From positions 1 to 64,000 of the forward strand of contig JACASX010000003.1 of the NCBI GenBank assembly GCA_013390745.1: a stretch of DNA of 64,000 nt. The letters are read 5' to 3'. This stretch comes from Marine Group I thaumarchaeote (GTDB taxonomy: Archaea; Thermoproteota; Nitrososphaeria; Nitrososphaerales; Nitrosopumilaceae). The notes beneath the pieces are model-generated. The model had not been told where the DNA came from, searched no databases, and saw nothing but the letters and a program-made list of their open reading frames with translations. Position numbers and translations under genes: made by a program. Shown in pieces: positions 2,827 to 7,669 of this stretch (position 1 is the stretch's first letter; each line of letters opens with the position of its first letter).

Positions 2827-3411
2827 ATGTTTACTGGCATAATTGTTGGGACTGGAAAAGTCACAAAACTTGATCAAAAAACAAAGAATAGAAGTGCTAT
2901 ACGGATGACTGTTAACCTAGGAAAGTATACAAAAGGTTTGAAGATTGGTCAAAGCGTTGCTATAAACGGAGTTTGCCTTAGTGCCACAAAAATTTCAAAG
3001 AACAAATGTGTCTTTGAAATGATTGACGAAACAATAAAGAAGACTGATTTGGGAAATGTGAAGGCAGGAAGTACTGTTAACATTGAACGTAGTTTGAAAG
3101 TTGGTGATAGGTTGGAAGGTCACTTTGTTTTAGGACACATAGATGGCGTAGCAACAATAACAAAGATTGAAAAAAAACCAAAGGAGGTAAAGTTCTGGTT
3201 CAAGGTTCCAAAAAGACTAGCTAGATATGTTGTGAAAAAAGGTTCAATTACACTTGATGGAATTAGTCTGACTGTCGTTGATGCAAAAAAAGATCTTGCG
3301 TCTGTTTGTTTGATACCACATACAATCAAAGTTACTAACTTTAAATCAAAAAAAGTTGGAGACAAACTTAACATAGAGACAGACATTCTTGGGAAATACA
3401 TTAAAAATTAA
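2827..3411 (+). CDS. ribE: Riboflavin synthase, bacterial-type alpha chain
   Basis: Catalyses dismutation of two 6,7-dimethyl-8-ribityllumazine molecules to riboflavin plus a diaminopyrimidine that is recycled. The 194-residue product has the two internal lumazine-binding barrels of the family: MFTGIIVGTGKV opens the first and GHFVLGHIDGVATI the second, each with its own ING(V/I)S-type loop (INGVCLSA; LDGISLTV). Length matches bacterial and fungal enzymes. Methanogens use an unrelated RibC, so this is the bacterial-type enzyme in an archaeon. It sits 79 bp before ribB with its own apparent promoter. Confidence 0.95.
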   Translation: MFTGIIVGTGKVTKLDQKTKNRSAIRMTVNLGKYTKGLKIGQSVAINGVCLSATKISKNKCVFEMIDETIKKTDLGNVKAGSTVNIERSLKVGDRLEGHFVLGHIDGVATITKIEKKPKEVKFWFKVPKRLARYVVKKGSITLDGISLTVVDAKKDLASVCLIPHTIKVTNFKSKKVGDKLNIETDILGKYIKN

Positions 3412-3466: not shown

Positions 3467-3490
3467 TATCTTCACAATCAATTTTTGGTA

Positions 3491-4165
3491 ATGACATTCG
3501 ATACGGCAATTGCTTCTCTAAAACAAGGTGAGTTTGTCATGATTTATGATTCAGACGGACGAGAAAGTGAAGTAGATTTGATGGTTGCAGCTGAATTTTG
3601 CACACCGGAACACGTGGCAAGGATGCGACAGCATGCAGGCGGTTTGCTTTGTCTTGCAATTTCAAATGGTTTAGCCAAAAAATTAGATCTAGAATACATG
3701 CACAACATACTTGCAAATTCTGACGATCTTGATTCAGAGTCAAAAAATATGGTAATGGGAATGGCACCATATGGGGATCATCCAACTTTTTCAATATCTG
3801 TAAACCACAAGCGAACATACACTGGAATTACTGACAGTGATAGGGCTTTGACCATAAAAGAAATGGCAAACTTGTACAATTCAGATAATCCAAAAAAACA
3901 ATTCACTTCTTCATTTAAGACACCAGGACATGTTCCATTGCTACTTGCTTCAGATGGTCTTCTTTCTTCCAGAAAAGGCCATACGGAGATGTCAATTTAC
4001 CTAGCAAAGCTAGCAAAGTTACACCCCGTTTCTGCCATCTGTGAAATGATGGATGCAGAAACTTATGCTGCATTGTCTTTTGTAAAGGCAAAAAAGTATG
4101 CAGAAGAGAATGCCATTCCATTTATTGATGGCAAAGAACTCTATGAATTTTCAAAGGTGCGTTAA
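3491..4165 (+). CDS. ribB: 3,4-dihydroxy-2-butanone 4-phosphate synthase
   Basis: Converts ribulose 5-phosphate to 3,4-dihydroxy-2-butanone 4-phosphate, the four-carbon donor for lumazine. The 224-residue protein has the acidic metal/substrate loop (DGRESEVDLMVAAEF, where most homologues have Glu-Gly-Asp-Leu), the HAGGLLCLAI segment, DRALTIKEM, and the C-terminal GHTEMSIYLAKLA histidine motif followed by a VSAICEMM-type segment. ATG 3491 is chosen over TTG 3485 from TATA spacing. It is the first gene of a tight operon: ribH follows after 2 bp. Single-domain, with no fused GTP cyclohydrolase II, as expected where GTP cyclohydrolase III (ArfA) is used. Confidence 0.95.
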   Translation: MTFDTAIASLKQGEFVMIYDSDGRESEVDLMVAAEFCTPEHVARMRQHAGGLLCLAISNGLAKKLDLEYMHNILANSDDLDSESKNMVMGMAPYGDHPTFSISVNHKRTYTGITDSDRALTIKEMANLYNSDNPKKQFTSSFKTPGHVPLLLASDGLLSSRKGHTEMSIYLAKLAKLHPVSAICEMMDAETYAALSFVKAKKYAEENAIPFIDGKELYEFSKVR

Positions 4166-4167
4166 TT

Positions 4168-4581
4168 TTGAATATTGCAATAGTGGTTTCGGAATTTAAC
4201 AACAAAGTGACGTCTAGAATGCATAAGGTTGCACTTGAAAAAGCCAAAGAATTGAAACTAAACGTCAAATACGAGTGTAATGTTCCTGGGGTTTTTGATA
4301 TGCCTTTAGTTATTGATACCTTACTGCAAAAAAAAGACATTGATGCAGTTGTTACGCTAGGTGCCATTATCAAGGGACAAACCAAACATGATGAATTAAT
4401 TGCAAATGTTGTTGCAGCAAGAATTTCCAAATTATCAATTAAATATCAAAAACCAGTTTCGTTAGGAATTTCTGGTCCAGGAATGTCTGAGAGGCAGGCG
4501 TTTGGAAGAATTCGACCAGTATCTGAAAGGGCAGTTGATGCTATTTTCAAGACAGCGGAAGAATTGAAGAGGATAAAATAA
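4168..4581 (+). CDS. ribH: 6,7-dimethyl-8-ribityllumazine synthase
   Basis: Condenses the ribitylaminopyrimidinedione with dihydroxybutanone phosphate to give lumazine. The 137-residue product carries the family signatures: S-E-F-N near the N-terminus for pyrimidine binding, the VPGVFDMP segment, VVTLGAIIKGQTKHDE with the catalytic-type His, and a C-terminal region with AVDAIFKTAEEL. The start codon is TTG, 2 bp after the ribB stop, and the stop codon overlaps the next gene by one base. It is short relative to many bacterial enzymes but normal for archaea. Confidence 0.95.
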   Translation: MNIAIVVSEFNNKVTSRMHKVALEKAKELKLNVKYECNVPGVFDMPLVIDTLLQKKDIDAVVTLGAIIKGQTKHDELIANVVAARISKLSIKYQKPVSLGISGPGMSERQAFGRIRPVSERAVDAIFKTAEELKRIK

Positions 4582-5330
4582 TGATTCAGATCACAGTTAT
4601 CAAAATTACAGGTTATGGTCCTTGGACTCTAACATTAGGAAGTGACCGGGAACATGAAATACAGATGCTTCAAGCTTCATTATATCTCCAAATACAGAAA
4701 TTATTTTCTGAAAAAAATGGTCTAGTTTTTTCAAACAGATCTGATGAATTTTTTGCAATTACAAGCGGCATTACACTTGAGGATCATATAGAAATCCAAA
4801 AGAAACTTGAATCATCTTTTGATTTGAAGTTGTCAATGTCAATCGGTTATGGTGATTCCCCATTTGATGCTAATCTTAGTGCATATGATGGGAAAAAATC
4901 TGAAATAAAACTGAATGAGGAACATAACATTTTTGGATTCATAGATGAGCAAACAGAGTCGAAAGTTACAATCATGCACCTAGATGTTGATAATCTAACT
5001 TCTAGAGGAGAAACAGCATCGCCATACGAAATTTCATCATTAATATTCAAATTATACGCAAAGATGTCAGAGTTTTTCTTAACTAAGAAAGCACTTTCAT
5101 TTTTCATGGGAGGTGATAATTTCATGGTTGTTGCAAACTCAAACCATAGGGAAAGTGCAGAAGAATTTATTGATATAATTAAAAACGAACTTGGAATTGA
5201 ACTAAATTGTGGAATAGGAACAGGAAAAACTGCTAGAAATGCAGTAAAACTCGCAACAAAGTCTCTTGATACAATCAGAGAGGTTCGTGATTCAGGGAAA
5301 GAGAAACCAGAAATCTATGAGCTTACATGA
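4581..5330 (+). CDS. arfA: GTP cyclohydrolase III (GTP to FAPy nucleotide)
   Basis: Archaea-specific first step of riboflavin (and F420) synthesis: opens GTP to 2-amino-5-formylamino-6-ribosylamino-pyrimidinone monophosphate without releasing formate. The 249-residue protein shows the duplicated GGDEF-like palm architecture of MJ0145: a first half ending with an NRSDEFFAI segment (52-60) and SMSIGYGDSP (86-95), and a second half with LDVDNLT (134-140) and the metal-binding FFMGGDN (174-180) and CGIGTGKTA motif. It overlaps ribH by one base and the amidohydrolase by 4 bases, so translational coupling is likely. Identification is strong. Confidence 0.92.
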   Translation: MIQITVIKITGYGPWTLTLGSDREHEIQMLQASLYLQIQKLFSEKNGLVFSNRSDEFFAITSGITLEDHIEIQKKLESSFDLKLSMSIGYGDSPFDANLSAYDGKKSEIKLNEEHNIFGFIDEQTESKVTIMHLDVDNLTSRGETASPYEISSLIFKLYAKMSEFFLTKKALSFFMGGDNFMVVANSNHRESAEEFIDIIKNELGIELNCGIGTGKTARNAVKLATKSLDTIREVRDSGKEKPEIYELT

Positions 5331-6514
5331 TATTAAAAAATATCAGCGTATTGTATGGAAACAATTTAAAATTTATAGAAAAAACAAATGTGCTGATCAC
5401 TAATAACATATTTCAAAAAATTAATTCTAAAATTAAATCTACTAAAAACAAAGTTGTAAACTGTGACGGTTTTTTACTAATTCCAGGATTAATTAATTCA
5501 CATACACACATTGGTGATTCAATCGCAAAAGATATAGCTCTGGATAGGGATCCTGATTCTAAAATCAATCCTATTTTTGGAATTAAACAAAAAGTTCTCA
5601 GAGAAACCGAGCCAAAAAAACTCATTCACTTTATGAGAAACACTGTAAAATCCATGCTAAAAAAAGGAACAACAACATTTGTTGATTTTAGAGAGGGTGG
5701 TTTAGATGGAGTTTTGCTTATGCAAAAGGTATTATCAAACACTCCAATTCGTTCTATAATACTGGGTAGAATAGAATACTATCAATCAAAAGACCAGATC
5801 AGAAGAAACATACCAATTCCACAGTCCTATCAAAACCAGATAGATCAATTACTAAAAAACTGTGATGGAATAGGAATCAGCGGTTCAAATGAAAACAGTG
5901 ATTCTTCTCTGAAACAGTTTTCTAAAATCAAAAAGATTCGTGCAATTCACTGTGCAGAAACCAAGCAAAGTTATTTGAAATCAAAGCAAATTACAAGAAA
6001 AACAGAGCCAAAGCGTTCCATGTTACTAAAACCAGATTTCCTTGTACATATGACATACGCCTCAAAAAGTGATCTGAATATTGTATCTAAAAAAACAAGA
6101 GGCATAGTTGTTTGTCCTCGCGCAAATGCATCTTTAGCGGAAGGAATTCCAAACGTTGTTCAAATGATGGAAATGAATTGTAATATAACAATTGGAACTG
6201 ACAATGTGATGATTAATTCGCCTGATTTGTTCAGAGAAATGGATTTTTTATGGAAGACAACGATGGGTATTCATCAAAAACGCATTGAACCAAAGAATAT
6301 TCTAAAAATGGTCACTATTAATGCGGGAAAATTGCTAGGTAAAAAAATAGGATGTATCAAAGAGGGATACTTAGCAGACGCTGTTTTTATTAAAAAGAAT
6401 GACTTAGATCTTGATCCCTTGCGAAACCCATACGCATCTATTGTACATAGAGCAAACGAAAATTCAATTCAAGCAGTAATGATTGGAGGTAAGATAGTTC
6501 ATGGAAAGCTTTAG
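5327..6514 (+). CDS. Amidohydrolase-superfamily deaminase in the riboflavin operon
   Basis: A 395-residue metal-dependent hydrolase related to cytosine, guanine and TrzA/AtzB-type deaminases. All metal and catalytic residues are visible: H59-T-H61, H208-C-A-E211 (metal His and general-acid Glu), H241 and D292 in IGTDN. It overlaps arfA by 4 bases and arfC by 14, so it is embedded in the riboflavin operon between the first enzyme and the reductase. In archaea reduction precedes deamination, and the deaminase of that step has lacked a gene assignment as far as I know. The Glu motif favours C-NH2 deamination. Alternatively it could replace the ArfB formamide hydrolase, which is also not seen here. 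Function is inference from context and motifs. Confidence 0.75.
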   Translation: MILKNISVLYGNNLKFIEKTNVLITNNIFQKINSKIKSTKNKVVNCDGFLLIPGLINSHTHIGDSIAKDIALDRDPDSKINPIFGIKQKVLRETEPKKLIHFMRNTVKSMLKKGTTTFVDFREGGLDGVLLMQKVLSNTPIRSIILGRIEYYQSKDQIRRNIPIPQSYQNQIDQLLKNCDGIGISGSNENSDSSLKQFSKIKKIRAIHCAETKQSYLKSKQITRKTEPKRSMLLKPDFLVHMTYASKSDLNIVSKKTRGIVVCPRANASLAEGIPNVVQMMEMNCNITIGTDNVMINSPDLFREMDFLWKTTMGIHQKRIEPKNILKMVTINAGKLLGKKIGCIKEGYLADAVFIKKNDLDLDPLRNPYASIVHRANENSIQAVMIGGKIVHGKL

Positions 6515-7154
6515 ACCACATGTAATATTCAGCGCTGCGATTACTTTAGATGGAAAGTTAGCAACACGAACTGGAGATTCAAAACTTTCCTCAAAAAAAG
6601 ACAAAATTAGAGTTCATAAACTTAGAAGTAAAGTTGATGCAATCCTTATTGGAAAAAATACTGTTGAAATTGATGATCCACTTTTATCTGCACATAATAT
6701 TAGGAAAAAAAATCCAATACGTATAATTCTTGATTCAAATGCGACAATCCGTACGAATTCAAGAATTTTAAAAACATGTTCAAGAATTCCCACCATTATT
6801 GCGGTATCAAAAAAAGCACCGAAAAAAAACTTGCAGAAACTAGGAAAATTTTCTGCCCAGGTTATAGTTTGTGGAAATTATACAGTAAACATAAAGAAAT
6901 TACTTGGAATTCTCAAAAAAAAAGGCATAAAAAATATTCTAGTTGAGGGTGGTGGGACAACAAACTGGGCATTTGTGAAAGAAAACCTAGTAGACGAAGC
7001 TATAATTACAATCACACCTTATCTTGTAGGAGGCATAACTGCCACAACATTAGTAGACGGCGATGGATTTTCAACTGTTGTGAAGTCAATAAGGCTAAAA
7101 TTAAAAAATGTTACAAAAATGAAAAATGAAGTTATACTACACTATGAAAACTAA
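6501..7154 (+). CDS. arfC: 2,5-diamino-6-ribosylamino-pyrimidinone 5'-phosphate reductase
   Basis: NADPH-dependent reductase that turns the ribosyl side chain into ribityl, corresponding to the C-terminal domain of bacterial RibD and to yeast Rib7. The 217-residue protein has the dihydrofolate-reductase-like fold signatures: ISAAITLDGKLA-type start (here FSAAITLDGKLATRTGD), RSKVDAILIGKNTVEIDDP, PIRIILDSNATI, and ILVEGGGTTNWAFVKENLVDE. No deaminase domain is attached, so the deaminase must be a separate protein. It overlaps the upstream amidohydrolase by 14 bases and the convergent tfe gene by 4. Confidence 0.92.
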   Translation: MESFRPHVIFSAAITLDGKLATRTGDSKLSSKKDKIRVHKLRSKVDAILIGKNTVEIDDPLLSAHNIRKKNPIRIILDSNATIRTNSRILKTCSRIPTIIAVSKKAPKKNLQKLGKFSAQVIVCGNYTVNIKKLLGILKKKGIKNILVEGGGTTNWAFVKENLVDEAIITITPYLVGGITATTLVDGDGFSTVVKSIRLKLKNVTKMKNEVILHYEN

Positions 7155-7669
7155 CTTCGCATTTCTTTTTTCATCTTATCAATTTGTTTAGCAAATGCCT
7201 TTTGTGACTTCTCGTTTTTCTTGAGATTTAAAACCCCACCACATGACTTACATTTAAAAAATTCATCAAGAGCCTCTTCAAATGTCATTCTTGAACAATC
7301 AGCGTTTCCACAATGATAAAACTGTGATGAATTTTCATAGTCTAATCTCTGTTGAAGTCTCTCACTAATCTTTTTCTTCTGATTCTCAATAAAGTTCTCA
7401 ACCTCATCTCTTCTAGAACGCCAACGGTAGACAAACCAGCCTTTTCTTTCATCTTTTACTCTAACTCCAGTAATGAGAGCTTTGCCAAAAAGATCATAGA
7501 GTACTTTTCGAACCATGTTGATTCTTAAACCAGTTGAACTTGCAATTTCTTCATCTGTTGCATCCTGTGATTTTAAGAGTGACCTTGCAACCTTGAGGTA
7601 TTCATCACCACCAATCATATACGAAATTTTCACAAATGGATCTTCGTATTTGTCAATCAACAGAAACAA
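7151..7669 (-). CDS. tfe: Transcription factor TFE, alpha subunit
   Basis: Archaeal homologue of TFIIE-alpha, which helps RNA polymerase open promoters. The 172-residue protein has an extended winged-helix domain (about 15-90, with ATDEEIASSTGLRINMVRKVLYDL as recognition region; only key residues cited), a charged linker helix, and a C-terminal zinc ribbon with two CxxC-type pairs (YHCGNADC and CKSCGG). It ends with a lysine-rich tail. It is the last gene of a minus-strand cluster with trm56, hflX and a PhoU-like gene and is convergent with arfC, overlapping it by 4 bases. Confidence 0.92.
   Translation of the reverse strand: MFLLIDKYEDPFVKISYMIGGDEYLKVARSLLKSQDATDEEIASSTGLRINMVRKVLYDLFGKALITGVRVKDERKGWFVYRWRSRRDEVENFIENQKKKISERLQQRLDYENSSQFYHCGNADCSRMTFEEALDEFFKCKSCGGVLNLKKNEKSQKAFAKQIDKMKKEMRS

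Follow-up and report, generated by a model that had tools for sequence, protein, structure and literature searches.

Which enzyme deaminates the pyrimidine precursor of riboflavin in archaea, which are without the riboflavin deaminase of bacteria and fungi? Reduction precedes deamination in these organisms according to PMC3403918, which builds on Methanocaldococcus jannaschii work. Our computational analysis points to an answer in the 64,000-nucleotide stretch of DNA studied here (the window), which belongs to a marine group I thaumarchaeote genome of 1.08 Mb and 86% completeness and contains an intact gene (5327-6514, forward strand) whose product we label AHD. We regard AHD as a candidate riboflavin-pathway deaminase, a mononuclear-metal amidohydrolase on the route from GTP to 5-amino-6-ribitylaminouracil, and give this reading a probability of about 0.87.

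AHD is encoded between arfA and arfC in a riboflavin cluster

Open reading frame analysis of the window gave AHD as a protein of 395 residues with an ATG start, and the opposite strand has stops throughout. Its nearest named records are 81-88% identical. The cluster runs ribE-ribB-ribH-arfA-AHD-arfC (Table 1), and the placement proposed in an earlier note on this DNA, with the gene between arfA and arfC and overlapping both, is confirmed: the AHD start falls inside the arfA stop in a 4-bp ATGA (5327-5330), and AHD shares 14 bp (6501-6514) with arfC. The same note had described ArfC as a stand-alone reductase with no deaminase domain, which agrees with its score above the TIGR01508 cut-off and with Pfam, where RibD_C is the only domain found in it.

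The ribE gene of the cluster encodes a trimeric riboflavin synthase of bacterial type in place of archaeal RibC, and genomes of the window's family have one PF00885 match, compared with two (RibH and RibC) in Sulfolobales-like genomes. A transcription factor E alpha gene (7151-7669) is convergent with arfC, overlapping it by 4 bp, and is the same neighbour in several relatives.

Table 1. Genes of the cluster and conserved positions of AHD in the window.
Feature	Position	Strand	Evidence or remark
ribE, bacterial-type riboflavin synthase	2827..3411	+	NF006767, 226.5 bits, cut-off 155
ribB	3485..4165	+	TIGR00506, 216 bits, cut-off 177
ribH, lumazine synthase	4168..4581	+	TIGR00114, 126.8 bits, cut-off 84.6
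arfA, GTP cyclohydrolase III (GCH_III)	4581..5330	+	PF05165, E=2.6e-54
AHD, candidate deaminase with an amidohydrolase fold, for the archaeal riboflavin/F420 precursor pathway	5327..6514	+	NF005552/PRK07213, 342.9 bits, cut-off 294
H59-x-H61, metal ligands	5501..5509	+	Invariant; coordinates counted from ORF start 5327
D64, invariant, family-specific	5516..5518	+	Most salvage paralogs have Met or Gln here
K87, invariant, family-specific, possible phosphate contact	5585..5587	+	Kept in every member
H208-C-A-E211, third metal ligand and proton-relay Glu	5948..5959	+	H208 and E211 invariant in 12 orthologs
H241, fourth conserved His	6047..6049	+	Invariant in 12 orthologs
C263-P-R265-A-N267 motif	6113..6127	+	R265 absent from salvage paralogs
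D292-N293, catalytic Asp and family-specific Asn	6200..6205	+	Gly, Ser or Ala for N293 in salvage paralogs
arfC, 2,5-diamino-6-ribosylamino-pyrimidinone 5'-phosphate reductase, stand-alone RibD-C	6501..7154	+	TIGR01508, 208.5 bits, cut-off 186.45

AHD follows the archaeal riboflavin pathway across genomes

Gene linkage in relatives revealed AHD within this riboflavin cluster in all 18 other genomes of the window's family and the order arfA-AHD-arfC at 93 of 98 Nitrosopumilaceae loci; at the other five, the stretch retrieved showed no arfA or no arfC, and many such stretches end at a contig end. Given this recurrence, the linkage is far beyond chance. Distant lineages show other arrangements, namely ribC-ribH-arfA-AHD (family f18), arfA-AHD (f29), arfC-arfA-ribB-ribC-ribH-AHD (f15), arfC adjoining AHD (f14, f26, f30 and f32) and AHD divergent from ribB-ribC-ribH-arfA (f3), and such independent re-linking with different partners is stronger evidence than a single inherited operon. 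The earlier note held that relatives with the gene unlinked to riboflavin genes would refute the proposed role. Such relatives do exist, among them those of f9 and f20 and some of f11 and f15, yet the pathway is still present in those genomes, and in other distant relatives the linkage holds.

To place AHD against the pathway as a whole, 121 evenly sampled Thermoproteota genomes were scored for AHD (by profile A1 together with the residue signature), ArfC (TIGR01508, at least 110 bits), RibH (PF00885, at least 100 bits) and ArfA (PF05165) at thresholds that we set ourselves; genomes with weak A1 matches only were counted as AHD-negative, their hits not being read singly, and G070, whose homolog is without R265, was counted as positive. 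AHD was present in 49/49 genomes with ArfA and in 49 of the 50 with RibH, compared with 3 of the 71 without RibH (Fisher p ~1e-29, relatedness ignored), and no genome among the 121 had RibD above its cut-off. Those RibD-model matches that include the reductase cover the reductase half only, and the few others in these genomes match the deaminase half weakly. The suggested co-occurrence with the archaeal pathway, in genomes lacking the RibD N-terminal domain, is thus borne out. Families of mixed content show AHD following the pathway: within f20, G080, G110 and G116 have it and G048 and G086 do not; within f3, G043 has it and G002, G094 and G100 do not.

The exceptions are G060 (7% contamination), which has RibH and no AHD, and G080 (locus L146), a 99% complete f20 genome with AHD, RibH and ArfA and no ArfC match, from which its two congeners differ. 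An ArfC-like protein occurs with no AHD in six genomes (G075, G087, G108, G050, G048 and G086; loci L163-L168), and these are no longer counter-examples because RibH is absent from all six. We also considered a RibD N-terminal domain hidden elsewhere in the genomes and rejected it: none was above the cut-off, and cytidine-deaminase-fold proteins do occur in G075 and G087, but both are without ribH. The window genome's sole PF00383 protein resembles dCMP deaminase.

Active site and proposed reaction

AHD would hydrolyse the 2-amino group of a pyrimidinone intermediate between GTP and 5-amino-6-ribitylaminouracil, the substrate most likely being the ArfC product 2,5-diamino-6-ribitylamino-4(3H)-pyrimidinone 5'-phosphate, and its product, once dephosphorylated, would serve both riboflavin (through RibH and RibE or RibC) and F420 (through CofG/CofH). 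Catalysis is predicted to follow the cytosine- and guanine-type deaminases, in which case H59, H61, H208 and D292 would hold the metal and hydroxide, E211 and H241 would relay protons, and the tetrahedral intermediate would lose ammonia, while K87, R148 and R265 are possible contacts for the ribityl phosphate.

The complete set of metal and proton-relay residues that had been read from the window is all there and is invariant in 12 orthologs, some just 24-28% identical to AHD. Next to this core, D64, K87, E123, N267 and N293 are kept down to very distant orthologs, K87 in every member, and R265 in nearly all, being lost in G070 and G110, and R148 is missing from f9, f20, one f15 member and most haloarchaeal copies. 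Because neither arginine is kept in all members, a phosphate role for R148 and R265 is doubtful. The most divergent homolog (L155:8601-9791, from G070) keeps D64, K87 and N293, has Ala at position 265 and has its GTD motif changed to GGD. Haloarchaea carry plasmid-borne homologs (L134-L137) that are unlinked to riboflavin genes and annotated as 'nucleoside deaminase' or 'amidohydrolase family protein'; the signature is present in them and NF005552 is their best model, with Ser in place of R148 in three of the four.

It is unlikely, if conceivable, that AHD instead deaminates a neighbouring intermediate, either the ribosyl form that precedes ArfC, as in bacteria, or the ribityl form without its phosphate. 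Neither gene order nor co-occurrence shows which of these intermediates AHD uses, and with R148 and R265 not in all members its phosphate contact is putative, but the ArfC product is favoured by the archaeal order of steps (PMC3403918), by the match of the window's ArfC to TIGR01508, an equivalog for the archaeal reductase, and by the universal K87.

AHD is separate from the salvage deaminases

Family searches assigned AHD to Amidohydro_1 (E=2.9e-41), with Amidohydro_1/3 as the only Pfam matches and neither a PF00383-type (cytidine deaminase fold) nor a PF02633 (creatininase) domain. The protein belongs to NF005552, with 343 bits in the genome search, and that model was also the top NCBIfam match for each distant ortholog tested. 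Guanine deaminase and SAH/MTA deaminases are among the best PDB matches of an AlphaFold model (mean pLDDT 86.9, with residues 65-86, the loop adjoining K87, as a low-confidence part). So is the isocytosine deaminase Vcz (TMq 0.84), whose substrate bears the same 2-amino-4-oxopyrimidine group as the one we propose. AHD is like TM0936 (1p1m/2plm, SAH/MTA deaminase), guanine deaminase and Vcz (7ww2, 8is4) in its amidohydrolase fold and HxH-HxxE-H-D site (TMq 0.79-0.84), whereas identity to them is 14-20%, their substrates are nucleosides or bases, and the D64/K87/R265/N293 signature is wanting in the salvage paralogs related to them.

The superfamily and fold shared with these enzymes, like the NCBIfam name 'chlorohydrolase', would suit a salvage deaminase or chlorohydrolase (SAH/MTA, guanine, cytosine or triazine) that stands in the cluster by chance. 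We dropped this as very improbable on family scores, signature and tree. AHD falls far below the cut-offs of the SAH/MTA (59.7 against 779), guanine (63.6 against 375.4) and N-ethylammeline (134 against 617) models, and in SAH/TRZ-type paralogs of this phylum position 64 is mostly Met or Gln, position 87 mostly has no conserved Lys, position 265 is mostly Val, Ile, Ser or Thr and position 293 mostly Gly, Ser or Ala, so that salvage paralogs are without D64, R265 and N293 and mostly without K87 too. In a tree of 47 sequences, a 100/100 branch sets all 32 signature proteins apart, with the salvage-type paralogs as a separate clade, and the latter occur in genomes without riboflavin genes, where AHD hardly does. 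Signature and branch accordingly bear out the distinction from SAH, guanine and cytosine deaminases, and together with linkage and co-occurrence this separation lends strong support to the earlier note's reading of the gene as a candidate archaeal riboflavin deaminase.

AHD acts before the riboflavin/F420 branch point

Two genomes, G018 and G102, show no RibH or ArfA above threshold and have AHD and arfC adjoining cofG and cofH, the genes of these groups all scoring well above curated cut-offs; GTP cyclohydrolase II as a first-step enzyme was not found in either genome. The AHD-arfC-cofG-cofH groups, at L222:8744-13028 and L223:9556-13769, are dedicated F420 precursor groups. FO synthesis begins from 5-amino-6-ribitylaminouracil, which is a riboflavin precursor too (PMC8498797), and AHD, standing beside arfC, cofG and cofH in the absence of RibH and ArfA, therefore acts before this branch point and not in the lumazine/riboflavin branch.

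The formamidase step upstream has its own protein. A creatininase-family (ArfB-type, PF02633) protein is found in 50 of the 52 AHD genomes, the exceptions being the window genome and G118, with one such protein in each of the 18 other genomes of the window's family, and in f15 the creatininase adjoins AHD in one cluster. Because a separate ArfB-type creatininase coexists with AHD in this way, we dropped as scarcely credible the reading in which AHD is the second-step formamidase, an ArfB analogue deformylating the ArfA product: its gene does lie between those of steps 1 and 3, amide hydrolysis is also known in its superfamily and a search of the window's own 86% complete genome gave no creatininase, but its HxH-HxxE-H-D set is of the aminohydrolase type and the deaminase would still be missing. 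ArfB/BrbF, the riboflavin hydrolase of step 2, works on the same pyrimidine series as AHD's proposed substrate but is of a different protein family. With ArfA and ArfC encoded by separate genes and the formamidase step taken, deamination and dephosphorylation are left before 5-amino-6-ribitylaminouracil, and an aminohydrolase site fits deamination.

Earlier proposals and significance

The earlier note took the deaminase to be a gap in the archaeal pathway, and this stands in part: the literature searched yielded no experimental proof of an archaeal riboflavin deaminase, but a candidate, MJ0699/HVO_2483, already dates from Rodionova et al. 2017, as cited in a later paper. That paper (PMC8305020, 2021) leaves three gaps in haloarchaeal riboflavin synthesis, two of them with candidates that Rodionova et al. 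2017 had put forward. Table 6 there gives HVO_1235 as arfB candidate, HVO_2483 (34% to MJ0699, 'also predicted for MJ0699') from the 2017 work, and an unfilled phosphatase gap (EC 3.1.3.104); because the other gaps in the table are arfB and the phosphatase, HVO_2483/MJ0699 would be the deaminase candidate by elimination. Both likely belong to AHD's family, NF005552; a control search with this model matched Methanocaldococcus jannaschii, two controls, given without their identities, being above the cut-off. A 2022 paper assigns the archaeal step to bifunctional RibD (PMC9478397), which disagrees with the genomes surveyed here. AHD as deaminase is not the first proposal of its kind; what is new is the genome survey, the finding of F420 genes beside AHD, the case against a formamidase and the residue signature.

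The deamination predicted for AHD is equivalent to that of the RibD N-terminal domain and fungal Rib2, which have the cytidine deaminase fold, but AHD is of another fold and superfamily, and no such domain is fused to ArfC. AHD is probably the deaminase on the archaeal route to 5-amino-6-ribitylaminouracil. It would be an enzyme of amidohydrolase fold, with no relation to RibD/Rib2, whose product feeds riboflavin as well as F420 and which some lineages would have kept only in the AHD-arfC-cofG-cofH group after loss of riboflavin synthesis. If this is true, an essential step of flavin and F420 synthesis gains an enzyme in ammonia-oxidising archaea, Sulfolobales and others, and a function would be given to a family (NF005552/PRK07213) that NCBIfam of June 2026 names 'chlorohydrolase', with no riboflavin role implied. 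It would also make a clear case of two unrelated folds for one reaction.
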